A stretch of 37,331 nucleotides of DNA from Bacilli bacterium (GTDB lineage: Bacteria > Bacillota_I > Bacilli_A > RF39 > UBA660): contig JAFXTH010000007.1 of NCBI GenBank assembly GCA_017525035.1, forward strand, positions 1-37,331, given 5' to 3'. The translations under genes and the position numbers were made by a program. How positions within the stretch are numbered: position 1 is the stretch's first letter; each line of letters begins with the position of its first letter. The notes under the pieces were generated by a model that did no database searches, was not told where the DNA came from, and saw only the letters and a program-made list of their open reading frames with translations. Below, piece by piece: positions 371-12,624 of the stretch.

Positions 371-3001
371 ACTTCCTGCTCCAGCACCACTATATGTTCC
401 AGCTGCACAAGCAGTACAACTTGTTGCTCCTGCTGCTGCAAATGTTCCAGCTGGGCATGTATCCCATTGTGCATATATTGTTTGATTTTGTGTAACTGTT
501 ACTGTTGTTGTTGCTGTTACAGCACTTCCACCAGTTTGTGATGTTGTCCATCCAGTGAAAATGTGTCCTGCCCATGTTGGTGTACATAATGTACCATATT
601 GAGAATTGTAATTAATTGTCTTTGTTGTACATCCGCTTCCACCATTATTATTATATGTAAGTGTCATTGCACTATTTTTTTCTACTGTAATTGAACATGT
701 TCTTTCTGTTCCTGCTACGTCTTTAATGTATCCTGTGTAAGTAGTTGTTGTATCAGTAGAGTGTACTATTGTTTTACTTCCTGTTACACTTCCAATACCA
801 TATGATCCTACTCCACTTCCACCAGTATCTGTTGCAGTGTCGAATGATACTGTAGCATTACCTATGAATCTTCCATTTCCTGCATATTTAACACCCTCTG
901 CTTTTAATGTACATGCAGGTGGTTGTTTATCTATATTTGATACTGTAATTGTACAAGTTCCTACTGTTCCTGGTGAATTTTTAACTTTTGCTGTGTATGT
1001 TCCGTTTGTTCCTACAACTTTTGTTTTTGTTCCATTGTATGTTGTTCCACCATCCCATGAATAAGATACTATTGAACTTGCTCCATGGCTTTGTCCTGTT
1101 ACAGTTAATGTTATATCTTGATTTGTCCAATTTGTATTACTTGATGAAATTGTACATGTTGGTGTTGTAACGTCAACTTTTGCACTAAAGCTTGATGTTG
1201 CACTCATTGTTCCTGCAGCATTTCCAACTTTATATCTTATATAGAAGATGCCTGCTTTAGAAGCTATTGCACTTGACTTAACACCTGTTCCGATAACTGT
1301 TGATGGATCACAAGTATTATTGTTATCTATACAATAGTAAATTGTTGCTCCACTTATACCTACATTACCGCTTGTTAATACGAAATCTAGATAACTTGCT
1401 GACCATTCTCCGTTTGCTACAGTTGTATTTGTTCCATGCTTTGTAACTGCAATTGTTACTGTTGGGTTGTTTTTATCTATTCCTATAATTGAATAATCTA
1501 CTGGGTCTGATAATATGTTACCAGCATTCTTTGATACTAATTTATTTGAAGTATTTCTTGCAAATGATTTTTCATCAGTTGTTTGGAATGTTGCTCCTCC
1601 ATCAAAAGAGTATCCAGTTGTTCTAACTCCTGTATCAATTGCATCAATCTTAATTGTTACATCTTTATTAGTAAATATTCCACCATCTGTTGTTAATAAT
1701 TCTATTTTTGCTATATCAAAAGTTACTCCAGATATTGATCCTAACTTAAATGACATTTCTCTATAGTTACCTGATGGTACTACAAACTCGATTTTCTTTG
1801 TTCCACTTGTCATTGTTGCTGTTACTGAATCGTTTGATGTTCCAACATATGTAAGTGTTGCATTTTGTGAATTAGTAATATTACTATTTAATGTAATAAT
1901 TACTCTGTCCACATTTGTGTATTTATCTAAGTTGCTTATTGTAAGTACTGGATTAGTACTTGTTGTTGTTAATTTTGATCCGTTTTCTGTAAGTCCAGAT
2001 AACGTCTTCTTTTCTCCGTTTGGGAATATTTGATATTTATATCTAAAATCAAATTTAGGTTTTTCTGCACCTACTCTTATATTTTTACTACAGATTCCTT
2101 CGTTACCAGCTTGGTCTTTAACATAACCAATTACTGTTGTAATTCCAGATTTGATAGATAATGATGTTTCTTTATTATAATCTCTATCAGCTAGACTAGT
2201 ACCAATACCATATGTTAGTACTCCACTATCTGTATCTTCCCAGTTCTTTAATTTAACTGTTACTTCATTAGTATACCAACCTAGGTCTGCATCGTAATTA
2301 CCTTCTACTTCTAACTCACATGTTGGCATTGTCTTATCTACGTATACTCTAACTGGGCAATCAGTTTTTCTACCACTCTTGTCTACGATTGATATTGTTG
2401 ATTCTTTTGTTGTTGTAGTAAATGTTTTAGTAAATGCTGATCTTGTACATCCTGTTGTTGCATCACTACATTTTACTGAAATTGCTCTGTTAGTATTAGA
2501 CCATCTTCCATTTGCTGCTTCTCCAATTACTTGACCGCAGACTGGATCGTCGTTATCGTATGTATATGTTGTACAAAGGGCCTTATCTGTTTTATATTGT
2601 CCACAGTATAAACAGGCAGTGTATTCATAATCTCTTCCTGTATTAGCTATTTCAACATAACTTAGGTCACCATCACAAAATCCTTCTTCTTGTGGATTTT
2701 TCATAAGTTCAACGTAACCTTTGTTTACTAGTTCATTTAAGTACAATAAGTTTTTTTCATTTTCACTAGGTAAGTCGCATTCTAACTCTTCCCCATTAAT
2801 ACATTTAATGACTTGGTTTTTTGCTGCATCTTCCATACTGTGCTCATATGATAGATATGCTGTATTTCTAGAATCTTCTATATATTTTGCTACAGATGGA
2901 ACTGCAATTAAAGCAATGATACCAATTATGATAATAACTGCTATCATTTCTATTAATGTGAATGCTTTCTCTACTTTTTTTCTACATTTTACCGAATTCA
3001 T
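1..3001 (-). CDS. Giant surface protein with type IV pilin-like N-terminus, Ig-like and Cys-rich repeats (C-terminus off window)
   Basis: The reading frame is open from an ATG at 3001 to the left edge, giving 1000 residues without a stop, so the C-terminus is missing. The N-terminus is a class III (prepilin) signal: a short basic leader, then AFTLIEM with Glu at +5 and Pro at +22 of a hydrophobic helix. The next ~750 residues look like tandem Ig-like/HYR-type domains with paired cysteines; one carries a YYC..NNTC motif shared with the neighbouring 3101-6322 protein. An InlB-type repeat ends near residue 845 (IYAQWDTCPAG). From there to the edge is a Cys-rich region with CPAGTY/CTTC motifs resembling TNFR/ephrin-receptor-like repeats. 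A good ribosome site (GAGAGGG) precedes the ATG. The architecture suggests a pilus-associated or surface-displayed adhesin. The fold calls come from family patterns and the function is inferred. Confidence 0.8.
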   Translation of the reverse strand, partial: MNSVKCRKKVEKAFTLIEMIAVIIIIGIIALIAVPSVAKYIEDSRNTAYLSYEHSMEDAAKNQVIKCINGEELECDLPSENEKNLLYLNELVNKGYVELMKNPQEEGFCDGDLSYVEIANTGRDYEYTACLYCGQYKTDKALCTTYTYDNDDPVCGQVIGEAANGRWSNTNRAISVKCSDATTGCTRSAFTKTFTTTTKESTISIVDKSGRKTDCPVRVYVDKTMPTCELEVEGNYDADLGWYTNEVTVKLKNWEDTDSGVLTYGIGTSLADRDYNKETSLSIKSGITTVIGYVKDQAGNEGICSKNIRVGAEKPKFDFRYKYQIFPNGEKKTLSGLTENGSKLTTTSTNPVLTISNLDKYTNVDRVIITLNSNITNSQNATLTYVGTSNDSVTATMTSGTKKIEFVVPSGNYREMSFKLGSISGVTFDIAKIELLTTDGGIFTNKDVTIKIDAIDTGVRTTGYSFDGGATFQTTDEKSFARNTSNKLVSKNAGNILSDPVDYSIIGIDKNNPTVTIAVTKHGTNTTVANGEWSASYLDFVLTSGNVGISGATIYYCIDNNNTCDPSTVIGTGVKSSAIASKAGIFYIRYKVGNAAGTMSATSSFSAKVDVTTPTCTISSSNTNWTNQDITLTVTGQSHGASSIVSYSWDGGTTYNGTKTKVVGTNGTYTAKVKNSPGTVGTCTITVSNIDKQPPACTLKAEGVKYAGNGRFIGNATVSFDTATDTGGSGVGSYGIGSVTGSKTIVHSTDTTTTYTGYIKDVAGTERTCSITVEKNSAMTLTYNNNGGSGCTTKTINYNSQYGTLCTPTWAGHIFTGWTTSQTGGSAVTATTTVTVTQNQTIYAQWDTCPAGTFAAAGATSCTACAAGTYSGAGAGSCTTCAAGSYNTGTGNTGCTTCPNGYYCTGGTNTTACKAGYKGTGTGKKNEAEGCSICSAGTYSSSAASTTCTTCPAGSYNTGEGNTGCTTCQNGYYCTGGTNHSSCKAGYKGTGTGKKNEAEG

Positions 3002-3045
3002 AAGTATACCCTCTCTATTTTATTGTCAATTTTTATTCTATATCA

Positions 3046-3074
3046 ATTATAATTCATAATTTAAAACTTTACAA
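3046..3074 (-). promoter_or_regulatory. Promoter of the pilin-like surface protein gene
   Basis: Read on the minus strand: -35 TTGTAA at 3069-3074, a 17-bp spacer, and -10 TATAAT at 3046-3051. It lies 45 bp upstream of the ATG and just downstream of the preceding gene's terminator, so the surface protein probably forms its own transcription unit. Confidence 0.6.
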
Positions 3075-3087
3075 CTAAGAAAAATAA

Positions 3088-3112
3088 AAAAACGATTAAA
3101 TTAATCGTTTTT
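3088..3112 (-). terminator. Intrinsic terminator of the 3101-6322 gene
   Basis: A 12-base arm (AAAAACGATTAA) is followed, one base later, by its exact complement, and on the minus strand by a run of T. The stop codon at 3101-3103 lies inside the hairpin. Confidence 0.75.
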
Positions 3113-6100
3113 CCATTTAGCATGAAACTTAATATTTTCTTTCAGAATATAATTTTCATTTATTTGTTTATCACTAATATACCAGCCTAAGAAAGTAGAA
3201 TTGTCTTTTTTAGGAATGCAAAGGTTACCAATTGATTCATCTTTTTCTCCTATTTGTTTATCGCAGCCATATCCACCAGCATTATCAAAAGTTATTGTAT
3301 AACCTTCTTTTACCCATTTTGCATATGCATTTATATTACCTGTTACTGTTGTCGTTTCGTTTATTAATATTCTTTTATTATTTACTTCTTTATACCAACC
3401 AGCAAAGGTATAACCATTTCTTGTTGGTGTGCATAACCTGCCCCATTCTTCTTTGTAGTTTTTAGTTGTCTTACTACAACTTTCAACATCATAAGTAATT
3501 GAATATTTATTTATTGACCACTTAGCAGTTAGTGTATGATTTTTTGTTTGTTCTACTTTAGTATTGCTTTCTATCTTTTTGTTTTCTAAATACCAACCTA
3601 GGAAAGTATAACCTGTTCTAACAGGAGTACATAGGTTCCCATAGTCACCATTATAATTAACTTCTTTTGAAGAGCAAAGTGATCCACCATTATTATCATA
3701 TTCAACAATTAACTTACTGTTTTTCTTAAGCGATATGTCACAAGTATTAGTATTACCAGCTTTATCTTTTATATACCCTCTATATGTAATTGTAGTGTCA
3801 CTATTTTTATTATATTTTATTTCTTTAGCTCCATCATATTTGTTTAATCCATAACTATCTATTTCATAATTATCGCTTGCTTTATTAAACTTGATAGTTA
3901 CTTCATCAACATATTCATCATCGTTTTTGTCTCCTACTGCTACTAATTCACAAACTGGTTTTTCTTTGTCTATATTATCTACTTCAATAGAACACTTTGC
4001 TATGTTTCCAGCATTGTTTTTGATATAAGCATCAATATGTTGATTTTCTTTTATTATTTTTTCATTATTACTATTATATTTAATGCCATCCCACGAATAA
4101 GAATTTATTTTGCTAATTCCAACATTAGAAACGTTTATTGTTAATTTAATATCTTCATTAGTTAATTCATTTTTATTCTTTGTAATTACGCATATAGGAG
4201 TTGTTATGTCTATTTTTACTTTAAATGTTTTTATTGGAGATTTAATATTTGAATCATTCTTTGCAAAATATCTAATGTAATATATTCCTTCTTTGTCGAT
4301 GCTTTCTTTGTTGTTTTGCATAACCTCTATATCTGGTGTACACATATTTTCTTTATCAATGCAGGAATAAATTGTTGTGTTACTTAATGCTTTGTTTTTC
4401 AAAACAAATTCAAAATCTACTGCGCTAATTTGCCATGTATCATCTTCAACAACTTCTTTATCATCATTAGTTACAATAATATCAACATCTGGTGTTTGTT
4501 CATCAACTTTGGCTATATAAGAATATATTTCTGACATAACATTTGCTTCATTAACTATTCTATATCTAATGTAGTAAATTCCTCTTTCATCAATATAATC
4601 ATTTATTATTTTATTTTCTTCTATTTCTGTATTAGGAATACATGTATTATCTTTATCTTCACAATAATAAATTTTTGATTTACTAAATCTATTTATTAGA
4701 TTAAATTCAAAAATTAATCCTTTATTTGTCCATGTATCACTTTCAATTATTCCTTCATCATTTTTAGCAACTAAATTAATTTTTCCTGGTTCTTTATCTA
4801 TTTTTGCTTCATAAGAAAATATCTCACTGCTTAGCATAGATTCATTATCAATTCTATATCTTATGTAGTAAATACCTTCTTCTTGATTAAAGATATTTAT
4901 TAATCTATTACTACTTACTTCCATATTTGGAACACAAGTATTATTTAAATCTTTACAATATTTAATTGTTCTTTTGCTAATGCTTTTAGAAACATCAACA
5001 AATTTGTAAGATAAATTATCATCTTGCCAACTATCGATTTTTTCAATTTCTTCATCTTTACTATTTGTTACTTTTAAATCAACTTTTGGTACTTCTTTAT
5101 CTATTTTTAATTTGAAAGACTTGATACTTGATTTAAGCCCTGATTTATTCTCAATATAATATCTTATGTATGATATGCCATTGTTTCTTTCTTTTTTTGT
5201 TAGTTCCATATCAACTACTTCAATATTTGGAATACAAGTGTTATTTTCATCTTCGCAGTAATAAACTGTTGCTCCTTTCATAGATGATATTTCATAAATT
5301 CTAAATGAAACGTCTTCATTTGACCATTCATCATTTTTAATATAAAGTTTTGAATCTTCTTTTAATACTTCTATTTCTGCTTCAGGTGTTTTAGATTCAA
5401 CATTTGCTTCAAAAGAATAAATGCTACTTTTTGCTTTAGAATTACTTACAACCTGATATCTTATGTAGTATGTTCCATTTAATATGTTATAACTTGTTAA
5501 TTTCTTTTTATAAACTGTTTTAGGAATACATGTGTTATTAACATCTTGACAATAATAGATTGTTGCACCACTAAAGCCGCTTGTTAGATCATAGAATGAG
5601 AAGTTAAGGCCTTTATTTGACCATGTAGTACTTTTAACTTCTTTTTTACTGTCTTTTTTTGTAGCTTTTATTTTAACACTAGGTATTTCTTTATCTATTC
5701 CAGTTATCTTTATTTTCTCATTTTTTGAAAGTGAATTAACGCTTACTATATCTTCAGTGTTTTCGCTATAAATTTTAACATTTTTATAATTGATTCCTAG
5801 TAAATAAACACTTACATCTTGATTAGTTAATATGTTTCCATGCTTAGTTAATAACTCTACTTTATCAAGCCTTATTATCTCTAGTAAATCACTACCATAT
5901 ACACTTATTTTTAGGTCTCTAAAAGTATCTTTAGGTATGTCAAAAATTATTTGCTTTTCACCCTTTTTAAGTATTTTTTCTACTTTGTTAATTTTATCTG
6001 CTGTATACGTTATTTTAATAGTTATATCTTTTTTCATAGCATCTTTCAAAGTTATAGCTATCTTTTCTATATCCTTGTATCTAGAAAGTCCTTGATAGAA

Positions 6101-6322
6101 TATATAACTATCTTTATTCATTGCTAAATAATCACGAGATTTTTTTATATTTCCATATTCGTAATCTTCATTTCCATTTGATATTAAATATCCATAATAA
6201 ACATCGTAATCAACTCTAGTTGGTATGTTATGTGAAAGTGATGGTTCCATAGAATATGCCAAAGTATTAACAGGCACTAATAAAGTTGTTAAAAACAATA
6301 TAGTTATCAATAACTTTTTCAT
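3101..6322 (-). CDS. Secreted repeat protein: Ig-like repeats with YYC..NTC motif plus three InlB B-repeats
   Basis: This is a 1073-residue protein with an N-terminal signal peptide (MKKLLITILFLTTLLVPVNTLAYS). The ATG at 6322 is preferred over one 13 codons upstream because the ribosome site GAAGGTGAG lies between them. Roughly residues 210-710 contain five tandem copies of a ~97-residue module. Each has a Trp-Ser-like start, a motif like IYYCEDxxNTCIPN, then GxYYIRYxxxN. Two Ig/HYR-like segments follow. The C-terminus has three Listeria-Bacteroides (InlB B/Flg_new) repeats with GYTFxGWY cores, each carrying two cysteines. There is no LPXTG motif, transmembrane anchor or SLH domain, so it is probably released or held non-covalently. 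The YYC module recurs once in the pilin-like protein downstream. Likely an adhesin or surface-layer component; function is inferred. Confidence 0.8.
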   Translation of the reverse strand: MKKLLITILFLTTLLVPVNTLAYSMEPSLSHNIPTRVDYDVYYGYLISNGNEDYEYGNIKKSRDYLAMNKDSYIFYQGLSRYKDIEKIAITLKDAMKKDITIKITYTADKINKVEKILKKGEKQIIFDIPKDTFRDLKISVYGSDLLEIIRLDKVELLTKHGNILTNQDVSVYLLGINYKNVKIYSENTEDIVSVNSLSKNEKIKITGIDKEIPSVKIKATKKDSKKEVKSTTWSNKGLNFSFYDLTSGFSGATIYYCQDVNNTCIPKTVYKKKLTSYNILNGTYYIRYQVVSNSKAKSSIYSFEANVESKTPEAEIEVLKEDSKLYIKNDEWSNEDVSFRIYEISSMKGATVYYCEDENNTCIPNIEVVDMELTKKERNNGISYIRYYIENKSGLKSSIKSFKLKIDKEVPKVDLKVTNSKDEEIEKIDSWQDDNLSYKFVDVSKSISKRTIKYCKDLNNTCVPNMEVSSNRLINIFNQEEGIYYIRYRIDNESMLSSEIFSYEAKIDKEPGKINLVAKNDEGIIESDTWTNKGLIFEFNLINRFSKSKIYYCEDKDNTCIPNTEIEENKIINDYIDERGIYYIRYRIVNEANVMSEIYSYIAKVDEQTPDVDIIVTNDDKEVVEDDTWQISAVDFEFVLKNKALSNTTIYSCIDKENMCTPDIEVMQNNKESIDKEGIYYIRYFAKNDSNIKSPIKTFKVKIDITTPICVITKNKNELTNEDIKLTINVSNVGISKINSYSWDGIKYNSNNEKIIKENQHIDAYIKNNAGNIAKCSIEVDNIDKEKPVCELVAVGDKNDDEYVDEVTIKFNKASDNYEIDSYGLNKYDGAKEIKYNKNSDTTITYRGYIKDKAGNTNTCDISLKKNSKLIVEYDNNGGSLCSSKEVNYNGDYGNLCTPVRTGYTFLGWYLENKKIESNTKVEQTKNHTLTAKWSINKYSITYDVESCSKTTKNYKEEWGRLCTPTRNGYTFAGWYKEVNNKRILINETTTVTGNINAYAKWVKEGYTITFDNAGGYGCDKQIGEKDESIGNLCIPKKDNSTFLGWYISDKQINENYILKENIKFHAKWKND

Positions 6323-6388
6323 ATGAAACTCACCTTCTTTCTTAGCTTTATATAATAACATATTTTGATTTCCATTTTTACAATTATT

Positions 6389-6528: not shown

Positions 6529-8721
6529 ATGAAAAGTAAGTTCTTATTTTACTTGTTCTTAATAACTTTGTTATTAACACCTGGTATTTATGCAAACGCT
6601 GAAAAGGTTACAACTGGTAGAGTTGCTGCTACTAATAATTTAAATATTAGAAGCGGTCCTGGTACTGGTTATAACAAAGTTGGAACTGCCATTTATAATA
6701 CTTACGTTACTATACTTGAATATTCATCAACTGGTAATGGATGTAATGATAAATGGGTAAAAATACTAAGTTCATCAAATGTTCAAGGTTATGTATGCTC
6801 TACATATCTTGCTGATATTGAAACAAAAGACGTTGTTGAAACACCACTTACACCAACTGGTGAGAGAATGGCAAATATGACTGATGAAGAATTTGAGACT
6901 TATTTAACTGAACAAGGATTTCCTGAAACATATAAGGTTAAATTAAGAGCACTTCATAAAAAACATCCAACTTGGATCTTTAAAGGTGTTAAATCAAAAT
7001 ATAATTGGACTGCTGCTTTAAACACTCAAGATATATCTGGAACAAGTTTATTAAATGTTAATCCTACATATGCTGCTAATGGTTATGAAGGATATTTATC
7101 AACTGCAGCTGCTGATTATAATCACAATACTGATAAGTTCATTGCACACGATGGAACATATTGGTTCCAAGCAAACAGAAAAACAATCGCATACTACTTA
7201 GACCCAAGAAACTTCTTAGATGAAAAACAAATATTTATGTTTGAAGAATTATTCTATTATCCAAGTTATCAGACTTTGGATTTAGTTAAATATACTTTAT
7301 CTTCAGAATTTTTAAAACAATTTGCTTCTTACTTTGTTAAAGGTGCACAAGCTTCTGGTGTTTCACCAATTTATCTAGCAGCTTTATCAAAACAAGAAGT
7401 TGGTACATCAAATACTAATATATGTACAAATGGAAAAGCTGGTGTTATTGAAGGAGTTGATTACACAGGTTATTATAACTTCTTTAACATAGGAGCTTAT
7501 TCATCAACTAATCCAAAATTACAATCATTAAAACGTGCAAAAAGTGAAGGATGGAATACCCAAGAAAAATCAATTGTTAATGGTTCTAAGTTTGTTTCAA
7601 ACAACTACGTTAACTGTGGGCAATATACATCATATTTTCAAAAGTTTAATTTAGCACCAACAGCAACAAAAGAAACATGGCACCAATATACAACAAATAT
7701 ATCTGCCCTAGTTTCACCAGCAATATCAACATACAATGCTTATAAAAACTTTGGATTAATTGAAAAAGATTTTATATTTGCAATTCCTATATATAATAGT
7801 ATGCCAGATTCAACATCATTACCTAAACTTGGAAATCCTAACAACTGGCTAAAGTCATTAAAGGTTAATGGTGCATTAGTCACTAACTTCAATAGTGATA
7901 CATTAAACTACACTGTCAATATTGCTTATGCAGAAACAGTAACCATAGATGCTACAAAAATAAATTCAAAGGCAACTGTTAAAGGTGTTGGTACTATAGC
8001 ATTAACTGAAGACACTACTGTTTTAAGTGTTGTTGTAACAGCTCAAAATGGTGCAGTTAGAACTTATAAATTAACTATTAAGAGAGCACCTAAACCAGCC
8101 GATACTGGTAACAACACTGATACAAATCCAAATACGAATACAACAACTAACACTAATACAAACACAAATACAAACACTAACACTAATACAACAACTAACA
8201 CTAACACTAACACTAATACGAATACGAATACAAACACTAATACAAGTACAGATAATGGATCAAATACAAATACACAACCAACTATAGATTTAAACGAAGT
8301 TCTAAAAGCTTCTGGATATAACTATACAGATAAATATTTAACAAAGGTTACTTTCGGAACTGGTGTTAATACAATTATTGCAAACTTAACTAAAAAATAT
8401 AATACAGTTACAATTAATATAAAAGATAAAAAAGGAAATGCTAAAACAAGTGGAACAGTTGTAACTGGAGATAAAGTAATTATCGCTGATGGTGAAAATA
8501 CTAAAACATTAGAAATAGTTATTTATGGTGATACAAGTGGAGACGGGAAAATAAGTGGAATTGATTTATTAAACACTCAAAAGCATATACTTGGTAAAGC
8601 TAAGTTGCAAGGTGCATATTTAAAAGCAGCTGATACTAATAAAGATGGTAAGATAAGCGGAATTGATTTATTAAATATGCAAAAACATGTTTTAGGTAAA
8701 TTAATAATAAGTCAAAACTAA
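6529..8721 (+). CDS. Secreted SH3b-glucosaminidase autolysin with C-terminal dockerin
   Basis: 730 residues. A signal peptide ends near residue 24 (ANA). Residues ~27-95 form a bacterial SH3 domain (NLNIRSGPGTGYN), a wall-binding module. Residues ~130-420 resemble the LytD/GH73-type endo-beta-N-acetylglucosaminidase domain (YYLDPRNFL, LAALSKQEVGTSN, YYNFFNIGAY). Glu290 in SKQEVG is the best candidate catalytic acid. Residues ~445-522 are a cadherin-like beta-sandwich ending TAQNGAVRTYKL. An Asn/Thr-rich linker (~530-580) follows. Residues ~665-727 are a type I dockerin with two calcium loops, DTSGDGKISGID and DTNKDGKISGID, each followed by LLN.QKH.LGK. The enzyme should cleave peptidoglycan glycan strands. 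The dockerin probably docks onto the cohesin-like protein encoded 13 bp downstream. A dockerin on an autolysin is unusual. Confidence 0.88.
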   Translation: MKSKFLFYLFLITLLLTPGIYANAEKVTTGRVAATNNLNIRSGPGTGYNKVGTAIYNTYVTILEYSSTGNGCNDKWVKILSSSNVQGYVCSTYLADIETKDVVETPLTPTGERMANMTDEEFETYLTEQGFPETYKVKLRALHKKHPTWIFKGVKSKYNWTAALNTQDISGTSLLNVNPTYAANGYEGYLSTAAADYNHNTDKFIAHDGTYWFQANRKTIAYYLDPRNFLDEKQIFMFEELFYYPSYQTLDLVKYTLSSEFLKQFASYFVKGAQASGVSPIYLAALSKQEVGTSNTNICTNGKAGVIEGVDYTGYYNFFNIGAYSSTNPKLQSLKRAKSEGWNTQEKSIVNGSKFVSNNYVNCGQYTSYFQKFNLAPTATKETWHQYTTNISALVSPAISTYNAYKNFGLIEKDFIFAIPIYNSMPDSTSLPKLGNPNNWLKSLKVNGALVTNFNSDTLNYTVNIAYAETVTIDATKINSKATVKGVGTIALTEDTTVLSVVVTAQNGAVRTYKLTIKRAPKPADTGNNTDTNPNTNTTTNTNTNTNTNTNTNTTTNTNTNTNTNTNTNTNTSTDNGSNTNTQPTIDLNEVLKASGYNYTDKYLTKVTFGTGVNTIIANLTKKYNTVTINIKDKKGNAKTSGTVVTGDKVIIADGENTKTLEIVIYGDTSGDGKISGIDLLNTQKHILGKAKLQGAYLKAADTNKDGKISGIDLLNMQKHVLGKLIISQN
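8117..8271 (+). repeat. Hexanucleotide-like Asn/Thr-coding low-complexity tract
   Basis: Near-repeats of AACACT/AATACA/AATACG encode an (NT)n linker between the cadherin-like domain and the dockerin region. The units are multiples of three, so slippage would change linker length without shifting the frame. Confidence 0.8.
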
Positions 8722-8734
8722 CAGGAGGTCTTAA

Positions 8735-10312
8735 ATGAAAATAATCAAAAAAATATATCTATCTATTATTGCACTTGTTGCTTTCATAGGTACAGTAATG
8801 ATTGTTCATGCTGCTAGCATGTCACTTAGTGAAACACTTAGTACTACAAGTACAGTAGTTGGAAACACGGTAACAGTAACAGTAAGAATATCTAGTACAG
8901 CACCTCTTGGATATGTTAACTACTCTATGAGCTATGATTCAAGTAAGCTAACATTAACTAGTGGAACTCAAAACAATGCATTATATAGCTTTACTGGATC
9001 AGAAAAACAAACAACAATAACTTTTAAGTTTAGAGCAAAATCAAGTGGTAGTGCTTATGTATCATTTAAAGTTAATGAAGCACTAGATTTCAATGGTAAT
9101 AATTTATCAGGAACTAAAAGTGTTTCAAGAACAATAACTATAAGAACACAAGCTGAGATAGAAGCTAGTTACAGTAAAAACAACAATTTGTCAAAATTAT
9201 CAATTAGTTCAGGAACTCTTTCACCTGCATTTAATAAAAATACTTTAGCTTATAGTGCAGAAGTTCCTAACGAAGTAACACAAATAACTGTCTCTGGATC
9301 AAAAGAAGATTCAAGAAGCTATGTTGACGGATTAAAAACTTATAATCTAGAAGAAGGTATTAATAAGATTAATGTTAAAGTAACTGCACAAAATGGTAGC
9401 TCTAAAACATATACAATTAATGTAACTAGAAAAGAGTTAGCACCTATAGTCGTAAATGTTGATGGAAAAGAATATAACGTTGTTAGAAAAAAAGCTTTAA
9501 TCGAAAGTCCTAATACGAACTATGAAGAAACAACGATTAAGATTGATGAAGAAGAAAATATTCCTGCATTCTTTAACAAAATCACTAACACTACCCTAGT
9601 TGGATTAAAAGATAGTGAAGGAAATATTGAACTATATGAATATAAAGATTCTGATTACAGATTATATAAAGAATATTCATTTGATTCAATAATAGTTACA
9701 GCAGCATCTGCAAAGAATATTCCAGAAGGATATATTAAATCAACAATTAAACTTGGTGAAGAAGATGTTGTAGCATACAAAAGTGAAACAAATGATGACT
9801 TCTATTTAATAAATGCTATAAATATAGCTACTGGTGAAGAAAACTTATATCAATATGATAAAAAAGAAAATACTATTCAAATATTTAATACAGATTTATT
9901 AAATCAACTAGATTCATTAGAAAGTAAAAATAGTAAATACACATATGTAATTATTGGATTAGGTGCCCTACTAATAATTACTTATATAGCTCTACTAATA
10001 AGCAGTATTAGAAAACCTAAAAAGAAAAAGATACCTAATGAAGTAGAAATTAAAGAAGAAAAGAAAAAAGAGAAAAAAGAAGAATTACCTAAACCTTCAA
10101 TAGAAGATGCTTTGTTAGAAGATGATGAAATAAAAGAAGATAAAACTGCAAAGATAGAAAATATTAAAGAAGTTGAAGTCAAAGAAAAGAAGAAAAGACA
10201 AACAAAAATGAAAAAAAATGAAACTTTTGATGAAGAAATAGAGAAATTTCCTAAAAAAGATGATAAAATTAAAGAAGATATTTCAAATAATACAAAAAAG
10301 AAAAAGAAATAA
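8735..10312 (+). CDS. Membrane-anchored cohesin-like surface protein
   Basis: 525 residues, starting 13 bp after the glucosaminidase with ribosome site AGGAGGTC. A signal peptide (~1-27) precedes a cohesin-like beta-sandwich (~28-140): VGNTVTVTVRIS, then GYVNYSMSYDSSKL, then TITFKFRAKSSGSAYVSF. This is the order of strands seen in type I/II cohesins. A cadherin-like domain (~150-235) ends TAQNGSSKTYTINVTR and is related to the one in the upstream enzyme. The ~240-395 region is unrecognised and acidic. A transmembrane helix (~403-425) is followed by a ~100-residue Lys/Glu-rich cytoplasmic tail. The adjacent dockerin enzyme is the obvious partner: this would be a one-site scaffoldin that holds the autolysin at the membrane. 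Module recognition is by pattern; binding is inferred. The charged tail could contact a cytoplasmic partner. Confidence 0.8.
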   Translation: MKIIKKIYLSIIALVAFIGTVMIVHAASMSLSETLSTTSTVVGNTVTVTVRISSTAPLGYVNYSMSYDSSKLTLTSGTQNNALYSFTGSEKQTTITFKFRAKSSGSAYVSFKVNEALDFNGNNLSGTKSVSRTITIRTQAEIEASYSKNNNLSKLSISSGTLSPAFNKNTLAYSAEVPNEVTQITVSGSKEDSRSYVDGLKTYNLEEGINKINVKVTAQNGSSKTYTINVTRKELAPIVVNVDGKEYNVVRKKALIESPNTNYEETTIKIDEEENIPAFFNKITNTTLVGLKDSEGNIELYEYKDSDYRLYKEYSFDSIIVTAASAKNIPEGYIKSTIKLGEEDVVAYKSETNDDFYLINAINIATGEENLYQYDKKENTIQIFNTDLLNQLDSLESKNSKYTYVIIGLGALLIITYIALLISSIRKPKKKKIPNEVEIKEEKKKEKKEELPKPSIEDALLEDDEIKEDKTAKIENIKEVEVKEKKKRQTKMKKNETFDEEIEKFPKKDDKIKEDISNNTKKKKK

Positions 10313-10336: not shown

Positions 10337-12592
10337 ATGAAGAAAAAAGCAAAATTACAATATAGTAATATTTTAGCAATTGTATTTATCATTGCATCTA
10401 TATATTTAATTCAAGCAATATTACTATTTAAGAAAATAGAAACAGGAATTAGATATTTCATTATTGGAGTTATATTAATAATTGATATACTCATATTCGT
10501 TAAATTATTCTTTTCTAAAAAGAAAAAGAAGAAAAAGAAAAAGATTATTGCATCAGTAGTATTCCTAGTCTTCTCTATCCTATTTATTTTCTTAGGATAT
10601 AATCTTAATAAGATTTATTCTTATTTCTCTAATTTAAATAAAAAAGTTGTATATTCAATAAGTTTAGTTACATTAAAAGAAAATAAAATAACTGATCCAT
10701 CTAAACTAAAAGATGTTAAGATTGGTGTTAATACTGAAGAAGAACATAAACTTGCTGAAGATATTATTAAAAAGTATGCACTTGATAAGAATAATGAATT
10801 AGTTGAATATCAAGACTATCGTAAAATGATTCTTGATTTGTATGATGGTAAAGTTCAGTATATATTCTTACAAACAAACTATGTGGATATTTATAGCACA
10901 GATGAAAACTTTGAAAATATCGGTGAAAAGATTATTACAATAGATACTTCTCAAAAAGAAGTTACAAAAGAAGAAGTACAACTAAGTGGAAGTTCAAAAG
11001 ATGTATCTGAACCATTTACTGTATTATTAATTGGTATTGATTCTACTGTTAATGGACTTCAAAATGCTGATTCATTCAATGGTGACTCACTTATCGTAGT
11101 AACGTTTAATCCATCAACAATGCATGCTACTATGTTAAGTATACCAAGAGATAGTTATGTACCTATAACATGTATGGGTGGTATTGATAATAAGATTACT
11201 CACTCTGCTTCTGGTGGAGCTAAGTGTGTTATTAATACAATACAAAACTTCTTAGATATTAAAATAGATTATTATATGAAAATTAACTTTACTGGAGTTG
11301 TTGACTTAGTTAATGCCGTTGGTGGTATTGAAGTTGACGTTCCTTATAAAATATGTGAACAAAACAGTAAAAGACAATTTGGTAAGAAAATGGTATATAT
11401 CAATGCTGGACATCAAACATTAAATGGTGAACAGGCACTAGCATATGCAAGAAATAGAAAAAGCAATTCTAATTACTGTAGTAAAGAATGGACAACAGGA
11501 GTTAGAAATGACTTTGTAAGAGCAGAACATCAACAAGAAGTAATTCAAGCTATATTAAATAAGATGAAAAACTTCAGTAGCATCGGAGACCTAGAAAAGA
11601 TATTATCAGTAATATCTAAAAACTTTGATACTAATATGAGCGAATCAACAATATTCTCATTCTACAACATAGGTAAAGATGTATTACTATCATCATCAAG
11701 TGATTCAGTTATAACAATTGATAAATTATACTTAGACGGCGATGGACAAATGATTTTTGATGAAAGAAGTGGTTTAGTACTATGGGATTACATCTTAAAT
11801 CAAAGAAGCTTATCTGAAGTTAAACAAGCATTAAAGAATAATCTTTCTGGTAAGAAACAAGAATTAATTAAGTCATTCTCATATAAATATGGAGAAAATT
11901 ATTCAGTTAGAGTAATTGGTAAGGGATATTATGATACTAAAAAGTATACCCTACTTCCTGATATGACTGGATGGACATTAACTAAAGCTCAAAAATGGTT
12001 AAAGGATGCAGGTCTTACTGTAGAAGTACAATATACTGAATCTAATAAAGAAAACAACATTGTACTAGAGCAACAATATCCAGCATCAAAAAGAATTGAT
12101 TTAATACCTAATAAAAAGGTTATATTAAAAATTGCTAGAAAAGGTGGTTCATCTAATACAAATCAAATTGATTGCTTAATAGATGAAGAAAATGAAAAAT
12201 GTATCGTTCCAGATTTTGTTGGTAAGAACGTTGATTACTTCAATAACTGGGCTGGTGGATTCTCAAATATGCTTGATTACAAACCATTATATGAAGAAAC
12301 TAGTGCAAAGCCAGCAAACGAAATACTTAAACAATCTGTTGAAAGCGGAACAACTGTTAGTGAATTATTAAATAGTGGTAAGACATTATACATAACTTAT
12401 GCAATTGCACCAAAAGAAAATAATGAAAATACTAACACTACAACAAATACAACAGATCCATCTGGTGGGGACCCAAATACTAACACAACAACGAACACTA
12501 CACCAGATCCAACACCAAACACTAATGAGACTCCTGGTGGTAATGAAAATCCTACACCTGGAACAAATGAAACACCTAGTGGGAATGAATAA
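10337..12592 (+). CDS. LCP (LytR-CpsA-Psr) family protein with SBP-like domain and two PASTA domains
   Basis: 751 residues; ribosome site GGAGG lies before the ATG. Three N-terminal transmembrane helices (~12-31, 40-59, 70-91) are split by Lys-rich runs. Residues ~100-200 resemble a small periplasmic-binding-protein-like domain (DVKIGVNTEEE). The LCP domain (~225-390) shows FTVLLIGIDS, GDSLIVVTFNP, LSIPRDSYVP and ALAYARNRK, the Arg/Asp set that binds the polyprenyl-pyrophosphate donor. Two PASTA-like domains follow (~535-600, starting LLPDMTGWT; ~615-690, starting CIVPDFVGKN), then an Asn/Thr/Pro-rich tail. LCP proteins transfer teichoic acids, capsule or other glycopolymers onto peptidoglycan outside the membrane. 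PASTA domains bind peptidoglycan or muropeptides in PrkC-type kinases and PBPs and are unusual here. Its place in this operon suggests coordinated wall assembly and turnover. Confidence 0.88.
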   Translation: MKKKAKLQYSNILAIVFIIASIYLIQAILLFKKIETGIRYFIIGVILIIDILIFVKLFFSKKKKKKKKKIIASVVFLVFSILFIFLGYNLNKIYSYFSNLNKKVVYSISLVTLKENKITDPSKLKDVKIGVNTEEEHKLAEDIIKKYALDKNNELVEYQDYRKMILDLYDGKVQYIFLQTNYVDIYSTDENFENIGEKIITIDTSQKEVTKEEVQLSGSSKDVSEPFTVLLIGIDSTVNGLQNADSFNGDSLIVVTFNPSTMHATMLSIPRDSYVPITCMGGIDNKITHSASGGAKCVINTIQNFLDIKIDYYMKINFTGVVDLVNAVGGIEVDVPYKICEQNSKRQFGKKMVYINAGHQTLNGEQALAYARNRKSNSNYCSKEWTTGVRNDFVRAEHQQEVIQAILNKMKNFSSIGDLEKILSVISKNFDTNMSESTIFSFYNIGKDVLLSSSSDSVITIDKLYLDGDGQMIFDERSGLVLWDYILNQRSLSEVKQALKNNLSGKKQELIKSFSYKYGENYSVRVIGKGYYDTKKYTLLPDMTGWTLTKAQKWLKDAGLTVEVQYTESNKENNIVLEQQYPASKRIDLIPNKKVILKIARKGGSSNTNQIDCLIDEENEKCIVPDFVGKNVDYFNNWAGGFSNMLDYKPLYEETSAKPANEILKQSVESGTTVSELLNSGKTLYITYAIAPKENNENTNTTTNTTDPSGGDPNTNTTTNTTPDPTPNTNETPGGNENPTPGTNETPSGNE

Positions 12593-12624
12593 AGAAGTGA
12601 TGTACAATTCACTTCTTTTCTTTT
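12591..12624 (+). terminator. Intrinsic terminator of the envelope operon
   Basis: AAAGAAGTGA (12591-12600) pairs perfectly with TCACTTCTTT (12609-12618) around an 8-base loop and is followed by a T-rich run. The stem begins within the LCP stop codon. Confidence 0.85.

Follow-up and report, generated by a model that had tools for sequence, protein, structure and literature searches.

A dockerin-bearing glucosaminidase and an adjacent membrane cohesin protein in uncultured Bacilli: a candidate tether for a wall hydrolase

Three genes lie head to tail on the forward strand of the DNA analyzed here, a stretch of 37,331 nucleotides (the window) that comprises positions 1 to 37,331 of contig JAFXTH010000007.1 from the Bacilli bacterium assembly GCA_017525035.1 (lineage RF39, UBA660). 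The genes are separated by gaps of 13 bp (genes 1 and 2) and 24 bp (genes 2 and 3), and each has a GGAGG-type ribosome-binding site (Table 1). Terminator-like hairpins, scored as consensus matches only, were absent from both junctions; one is present right after gene 3. Gene 1 encodes a secreted glucosaminidase that ends in a dockerin, a small calcium-binding module, and gene 2 encodes a membrane-anchored protein that begins with a cohesin-type domain. Together, these two proteins very probably form a dedicated, insulated tether that keeps a SagB-like wall hydrolase at the membrane. The window's assembly amounts to 1.25 Mb and is 88% complete, and most of the genomes compared with it are draft assemblies.

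The gene 1 protein consists, in order, of a signal peptide, an SH3 domain, the catalytic domain, a cadherin-like domain, an Asn/Thr linker, a pre-dockerin module, and the dockerin. Its catalytic domain is nearest to SagB and Atl (SagB model NF052642, E 7e-19; the autolysin structure PDB 6fxo, E 5e-18), and both the predicted catalytic residue, Glu290 (positions 7396-7398), and N317 are invariant in 59 relatives. When the upstream proteins of 59 relatives were scanned, 53 had a SagB match and all 59 contained Dockerin_1. In the window's own protein, the Pfam model Dockerin_1 (PF00404) covers residues 666-722 with a score of 47.3 bits (cut-off, 22.9), spanning two tandem calcium-loop/helix repeats. 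The recognition residues at positions 10 and 11 are mirrored between the repeats (GI/GI), which is the dual-binding signature of a type I dockerin. No other dockerin was detected in the assembly. Right before the dockerin lies a conserved module (8302-8520, residues 592-664), possibly an X-module-like companion, which does not co-vary with the cohesin. Because an AlphaFold2 model of the full gene 1 protein was poor (mean predicted local distance difference test score, pLDDT, of 49.8), it was left out of the fold searches.

The gene 2 protein begins with a signal peptide, which is followed by the cohesin domain, a cadherin-like domain, a membrane-proximal region (residues about 237-385) for which no family name was found, one helix, and a Lys/Glu-rich tail. 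In the AlphaFold2 model the C-terminal helix spans residues 386-425; the tail is variable or short among relatives. The Pfam Cohesin model (PF00963) gives 26.7 bits in the genome search and 24.2 bits (cut-off, 24.1) with the first 260 amino acids (aa), and it is not listed in a Pfam scan of the complete 525-aa protein. A profile built from 73 relatives of gene 2, when compared with the PDB, has cellulosomal cohesins as its top matches (3l8q, E 4e-6). In the AlphaFold2 model, the domain (pLDDT about 90) adopts the nine-strand jelly-roll fold of a cohesin. Its best structural match is the Clostridium perfringens cohesin-like module 2jh2 (Z 11.7, 2.3 Å over 111 residues), and many cellulosomal cohesins are found at Z 9.5-10 (for example, 1g1k at Z 10.0).

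An original prediction, made from the letters of the window, had described two dockerin calcium loops at the end of a secreted SH3-glucosaminidase and, in the next gene 13 bp away, a cohesin-like domain, a related cadherin-like domain, one membrane helix, and a Lys/Glu-rich tail. All of these features are borne out, the cohesin-like domain narrowly by its Pfam score and also by its fold and its profile match to PDB cohesins. A fold unlike that of a cohesin, one of the grounds on which the prediction could have failed, was not observed, and its proposal that the pair would hold the hydrolase at the membrane-wall interface as a one-to-one tether is supported by the comparisons below.

Table 1. 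Features of the three-gene operon (positions are those of the window)
Feature	Positions	Strand	Description and evidence
Gene 1	6529..8721	+	Secreted SagB-like glucosaminidase (autolysin), 730 aa; GGAGG ribosome-binding site just 5'
SH3_3 domain	6637..6810	+	Residues 37-94; Pfam 42.9 bits
Glucosaminidase catalytic domain	7111..7767	+	Residues about 195-413; matches SagB NF052642 and PDB 6fxo
Specificity cassette, ~0.9 kb	8509..9400	+	History unlike that of its flanks; sliding identity and conflicting trees
Type I dockerin	8524..8694	+	Two repeats, loops DTSGDGKISGID and DTNKDGKISGID; recognition residues G10 and I11 in each
Gene 2	8735..10312	+	Membrane-anchored cohesin protein, 525 aa; AGGAGG ribosome-binding site 5'
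Cohesin domain, proposed dockerin socket	8816..9148	+	Residues about 28-138; Pfam, PDB profile, and fold match
Cadherin-like beta-sandwich	9188..9433	+	Residues 152-233; PF12733 46.9 bits
Conserved membrane-proximal extracellular region	9443..9889	+	Residues about 237-385; beta-rich (model); conserved in 28 relatives
Transmembrane helix (about residues 399-421) and Lys/Glu-rich cytoplasmic tail	9929..10309	+	Relatives and model
Gene 3	10337..12592	+	LytR-CpsA-Psr (LCP) glycopolymer ligase with PASTA domain; Pfam 139.6 and 43.8 bits
Terminator-like hairpin, end of operon	12591..12618	+	Consensus scan only

The gene pair is widely conserved. Relatives of gene 2 were found in 286 of the family's 386 genomes (by tally, in 119 of 150 genera) and also in some other families of the class. 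At all of the 120 loci that were picked by gene 2 alone, the same-strand gene immediately upstream codes for a protein with a dockerin at its end; with 28 earlier loci added, this is the case at 146 of 148. One of the two exceptions, L030, lies at a contig edge, and its dockerin was found upstream. At the other, L031 of genome G025, a dockerin-bearing M6 peptidase gene is present downstream instead. In G025, locus L247 has a gene 2 relative (592-1869) that precedes a dockerin-bearing M6 peptidase gene (1841-4714), with matching type B domains (see below); here the anchor seems to have acquired another client. Within the family, a match to the enzyme is present in 20 of 20 genomes that have gene 2 and in 0 of 20 that lack it, and in families f13 and f19 a dockerin gene lies upstream at 16 of 16 loci. 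The situation that the original prediction had named as damaging to it, homologous operons with the dockerin and no cohesin partner, was therefore not seen at the loci picked by gene 2 or in the genomes compared. A role for the tether as a substitute for missing sortases was ruled out, as the window's assembly and 35 of the 36 family genomes examined do contain sortases.

Positions 10 and 11 of a dockerin are established determinants of specificity (PMC8063739). Among 125 dockerins, the two repeats have matching residues at positions 10, 11, 13, 14, 17, 18, and 21 (kappa 0.76-0.96, with 0.85 and 0.76 at positions 10 and 11, respectively). These mirrored positions vary strongly among genomes; positions 4, 7, 16, and 19 barely agree between repeats (kappa 0-0.17). 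Matched repeats are a signature of dual-mode binding.

Changes in the dockerin are tracked by changes in the cohesin of the next gene. Distances between dockerin recognition residues and distances between the neighboring cohesins give a Spearman correlation of 0.76 and, once the contributions of the cadherin-like, membrane-proximal, and enzyme parts are removed, a partial Mantel r of 0.738 (p 0.001). No link was found between the recognition residues and those three parts (-0.02, 0.02, and 0.06, respectively). In type A alone, the largest of the types described below, the partial r is 0.45 (p 0.001). The set of recognition residues was picked partly after the symmetry test had been seen; with the whole dockerin used instead, the partial r is 0.63. 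A size swap is visible at five loci, where dockerin Leu14 is replaced by Gly and where, in 5/5, cohesin Leu/Ile58-Gly59 is replaced by Met58-Val/Ser59. Because all five lie in one part of the operon tree, they do not represent five independent events. In six dockerins (L107, L111, L180, L203, L209, and L217), the second calcium loop is degenerate and the recognition residues are largely intact, a pattern that suggests that binding may be under stronger selection than calcium in the second repeat.

The dockerins can be sorted into four types, A (LLxxQK), B (YVxxKN), C (LLxxRQ), and D (YL/ALxxLR), and the cohesin domains, when clustered independently, form the same four groups almost without exception. 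L186 and L200 (LLRK) are put in type C by a crude dockerin typing and have cohesins that cluster with or near type A. The type B, C, and D domains that were scanned are not recognized as cohesins by Pfam, whereas profile comparison with hhalign relates them to type A at 94-98%; they are therefore regarded as diverged forms and not as proven cohesins. On an operon tree built from the other parts of both proteins, without dockerin and cohesin, about 16 joint type switches are found, several of them forced by well-supported branches, and one clade contains types A, B, B, C, C, and D. Between L178 and L128, identity is 83% in the membrane-proximal region and 24% in the cohesin domain, with zero dockerin recognition residues in common. 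The co-variation, the size swap, and the matched types lend indirect support to binding of the dockerin by the gene 2 domain.

One such switch can be followed at the window itself. Compared with the sister genome G010, the operon has about 85% DNA identity, which drops to about 60-65% from 8509 to about 9400, a tract that holds the dockerin, the intergenic segment, the signal peptide, the cohesin, and most of the cadherin-like domain of gene 2. Relative to genome G004 the pattern is reversed: the dockerin is 98% and the cohesin 81% identical, and the flanks are more divergent. Trees of cassette and backbone conflict (approximately unbiased test, p 5.7e-16 and 2.3e-5), the groups for this test having been named after the identity profile was seen. 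Computational comparison of this kind shows that the window's own lineage has undergone one joint switch of dockerin and cohesin by recombination. Because the dockerin lies at the 3' end of gene 1, next to the 5' end of gene 2 with its cohesin, a single short recombination tract can swap both halves.

Other dockerins and cohesins exist in this family. In a by-eye comparison of about a dozen relatives, the recognition residues of the operon dockerin were absent from every other dockerin. Many of these other dockerin genes adjoin a cohesin-type membrane gene of their own, and they encode papain-like cysteine proteases, an M6 peptidase, and a phosphodiester glycosidase. Because their recognition residues differ and many have such a neighbor, several private couplings appear to operate in parallel in this family, with the autolysin pair as the conserved one. 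The one-to-one pairing that had been predicted also gains support, since the recognition residues recur in none of the other dockerins examined from these genomes. The papain-like cysteine proteases at L218, L221, L225, and L226 carry C-terminal dockerins of other types, and at the last three of these loci a cohesin-type membrane gene lies directly 3' of the protease gene, so that the family has private pairs of a second kind. Genome G030, which is small, encodes about ten dockerin proteins of another kind (TLIDLIQYRLYMV/SLVDLIAARKLLV and similar; L240-L246), with small cohesin-like open reading frames near them at L242; this is a separate multi-client system.

From the domains, the operon, its conservation, and the co-variation, co-switching, and recombination computed here, one can infer binding, a need for calcium, a membrane location, and a SagB-like role, in the following way. 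The glucosaminidase would be secreted, and its C-terminal dockerin would dock onto the N-terminal cohesin of the single-pass gene 2 protein, with calcium maintaining the dockerin fold during docking. Docking would keep the enzyme at the membrane's outer face, and the tethered enzyme might trim or release new glycan strands, as does the membrane-held SagB-SpdC of Staphylococcus aureus. The pair would be insulated by the different recognition residues that the cell's other dockerin proteins use.

Several observations weigh against this reading. Gene 1 scores 68.1 bits with the SagB model NF052642, whose cut-off is 425, so that the homology behind a SagB-like role is distant. The Pfam cohesin score of gene 2 sits at its cut-off. 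Immunoglobulin (Ig)-like domains without a dockerin partner also reach Z 10-11 in the list of structural matches, and for this reason the fold alone is not specific for a cohesin; the assignment was therefore decided by sequence evidence and co-variation, not by fold alone. The concerted change of the two dockerin repeats could stem partly from gene conversion. The cohesin residues that are coupled to the dockerin show only a weak enrichment at the known dockerin face (p 0.049, with strands assigned to faces from the model and general knowledge). Finally, the window's genome encodes a second cohesin protein that might be an alternative partner.

More tentatively, the dockerin-cohesin pair may be a swappable specificity cassette under diversifying selection, with at least four orthogonal matched types exchanged by recombination between otherwise stationary operons, giving related gut bacteria private couplings on a core wall enzyme. 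Possible reasons for such diversification are insulation, recognition of own versus foreign enzyme, or escape from an agent that targets the exposed socket.

The strong diversification, the paired switching, and the exchange of matched cassettes resemble what is seen at toxin-immunity and recognition loci, and for cellulosome bacteria a lysis complex made up of dockerin-bearing wall hydrolases has been proposed (PMC6403190). The glucosaminidase might thus be a released antibacterial enzyme, with the membrane protein catching stray enzyme or that of neighbors (self-protection or kin recognition) and the matched types acting like immunity. However, the enzyme is SagB-like, has an SH3 wall-binding domain, and shares an operon with an LCP ligase, as a housekeeping wall enzyme would, and the genomes compared have either both enzyme and partner or neither; such a role is unlikely. 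It is still less probable that the membrane cohesin is a shared anchor, a general post for several dockerin proteins in a minimal cellulosome-like display with the autolysin as one client. Single membrane cohesins could serve many clients, and relatives do have other dockerin proteins, including the papain-like proteases and the M6 peptidase, but the window's assembly has only one dockerin, and the other dockerins of the relatives have the different residues and the private neighbors described above.

The second cohesin protein just mentioned is encoded at G000:C11 in the window's genome (locus L002, positions 499-1941, minus strand). It is a membrane protein, conserved in the genus, that starts with a cohesin and continues with cadherin-like domains, a single helix, and a charged tail, and its gene adjoins a polysaccharide deacetylase gene without a dockerin. 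If the dockerin bound this cohesin, the gene 2 domain would be a structural Ig-like fellow traveler. The C11 cohesin does score higher in Pfam (31.2 versus 26.7 bits), within the same overall architecture. Yet the co-variation, the matched types, the co-switching, and the joint recombination all involve the gene 2 domain, and the C11 paralogue, compared in 8 genomes, is 79% identical between the window's genome and G010 although the dockerin has changed; a wrong partner is thus very improbable. That the two proteins do not interact at all, a non-functional calcium-binding tail and a neighboring surface protein being kept together by operon function only, is hardly credible, as it leaves unexplained why the co-variation is specific and passes over the other domains of both proteins, and it accounts for neither the Gly14/Val59 swap nor the joint switching.

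The preferred reading, a dedicated tether, has parts that are already known from other bacteria, namely cohesin-dockerin pairs and the dockerin-bearing wall hydrolases of cellulosome bacteria. The type I cohesin-dockerin system of the cellulosome (C. thermocellum, C. cellulolyticum) has the same Dockerin_1 with two calcium loops, mirrored positions 10/11, and the cohesin fold, and it likewise joins a secreted enzyme to a surface protein. Unlike the cellulosome, the pair described here has one cohesin, one client (a wall hydrolase), a single-pass membrane anchor, and partners that are adjacent in an operon. It also lacks a multi-cohesin scaffoldin and plant-polysaccharide enzymes: the assembly contains two cohesin matches, one per protein, and one dockerin, and neither a scaffoldin nor many dockerin-bearing polysaccharide-degrading enzymes were found in it. 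In C. perfringens, secreted enzymes are assembled into multi-enzyme complexes through their cohesin and dockerin modules (PMC12997984). These cohesin/dockerin (X82) complexes provide single cohesin modules outside cellulosomes and the closest fold matches (2jh2, 2w1n, and 2vo8), but the cohesin of gene 2 is on a membrane protein. In Ruminococcus champanellensis, dockerin-bearing cell-wall hydrolases (the "lyticome" idea) have been proposed to join scaffoldins (reviewed in PMC6403190); a wall hydrolase with a dockerin is common to both, and here it would have a dedicated one-to-one membrane partner instead.

The nearest working analogue may be SagB-SpdC of S. aureus, in which a membrane protein holds the glucosaminidase and new glycan strands are cut to length (PMC10581084). 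A glucosaminidase of apparently the same family is kept at the membrane by a partner, as is proposed here. The two systems differ in that SagB associates with the membrane by itself and its partner SpdC, a homologue of CAAX proteases, orients the active site, whereas the gene 1 enzyme lacks a membrane anchor and would be held by its partner through the cohesin. Gene 2 has one C-terminal helix and no domain match to SpdC or CAAX proteases. In the open-licence literature searched, no description was found of a one-to-one membrane cohesin for an autolysin or of the exchange of matched cohesin-dockerin cassettes between operons.

The LCP ligase gene as a neighbor fits a wall-building setting. Divergent from the operon, on the minus strand (3101-6361), lies a gene for a large secreted, repeat-rich protein with three List_Bact_rpt domains.

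Wall hydrolases need control. The joint change of plug and socket across more than a hundred related genera suggests a widespread way of controlling a wall enzyme. If the tether is real, about three quarters of the genomes sampled from a large, uncultured gut family would possess a modular, genetically readable restraint of a wall hydrolase, and related gene pairs are present in other families of the class. The more than 100 matched plug-and-socket pairs, several of them mutually distinct, would be a natural library for protein engineering, and the cassette, if it behaves as proposed, would be a clear case of interacting domains of different genes that are exchanged as one recombination unit. 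For these bacteria, cohesin-dockerin coupling would then extend from complexes for digestion to the cell's own wall.

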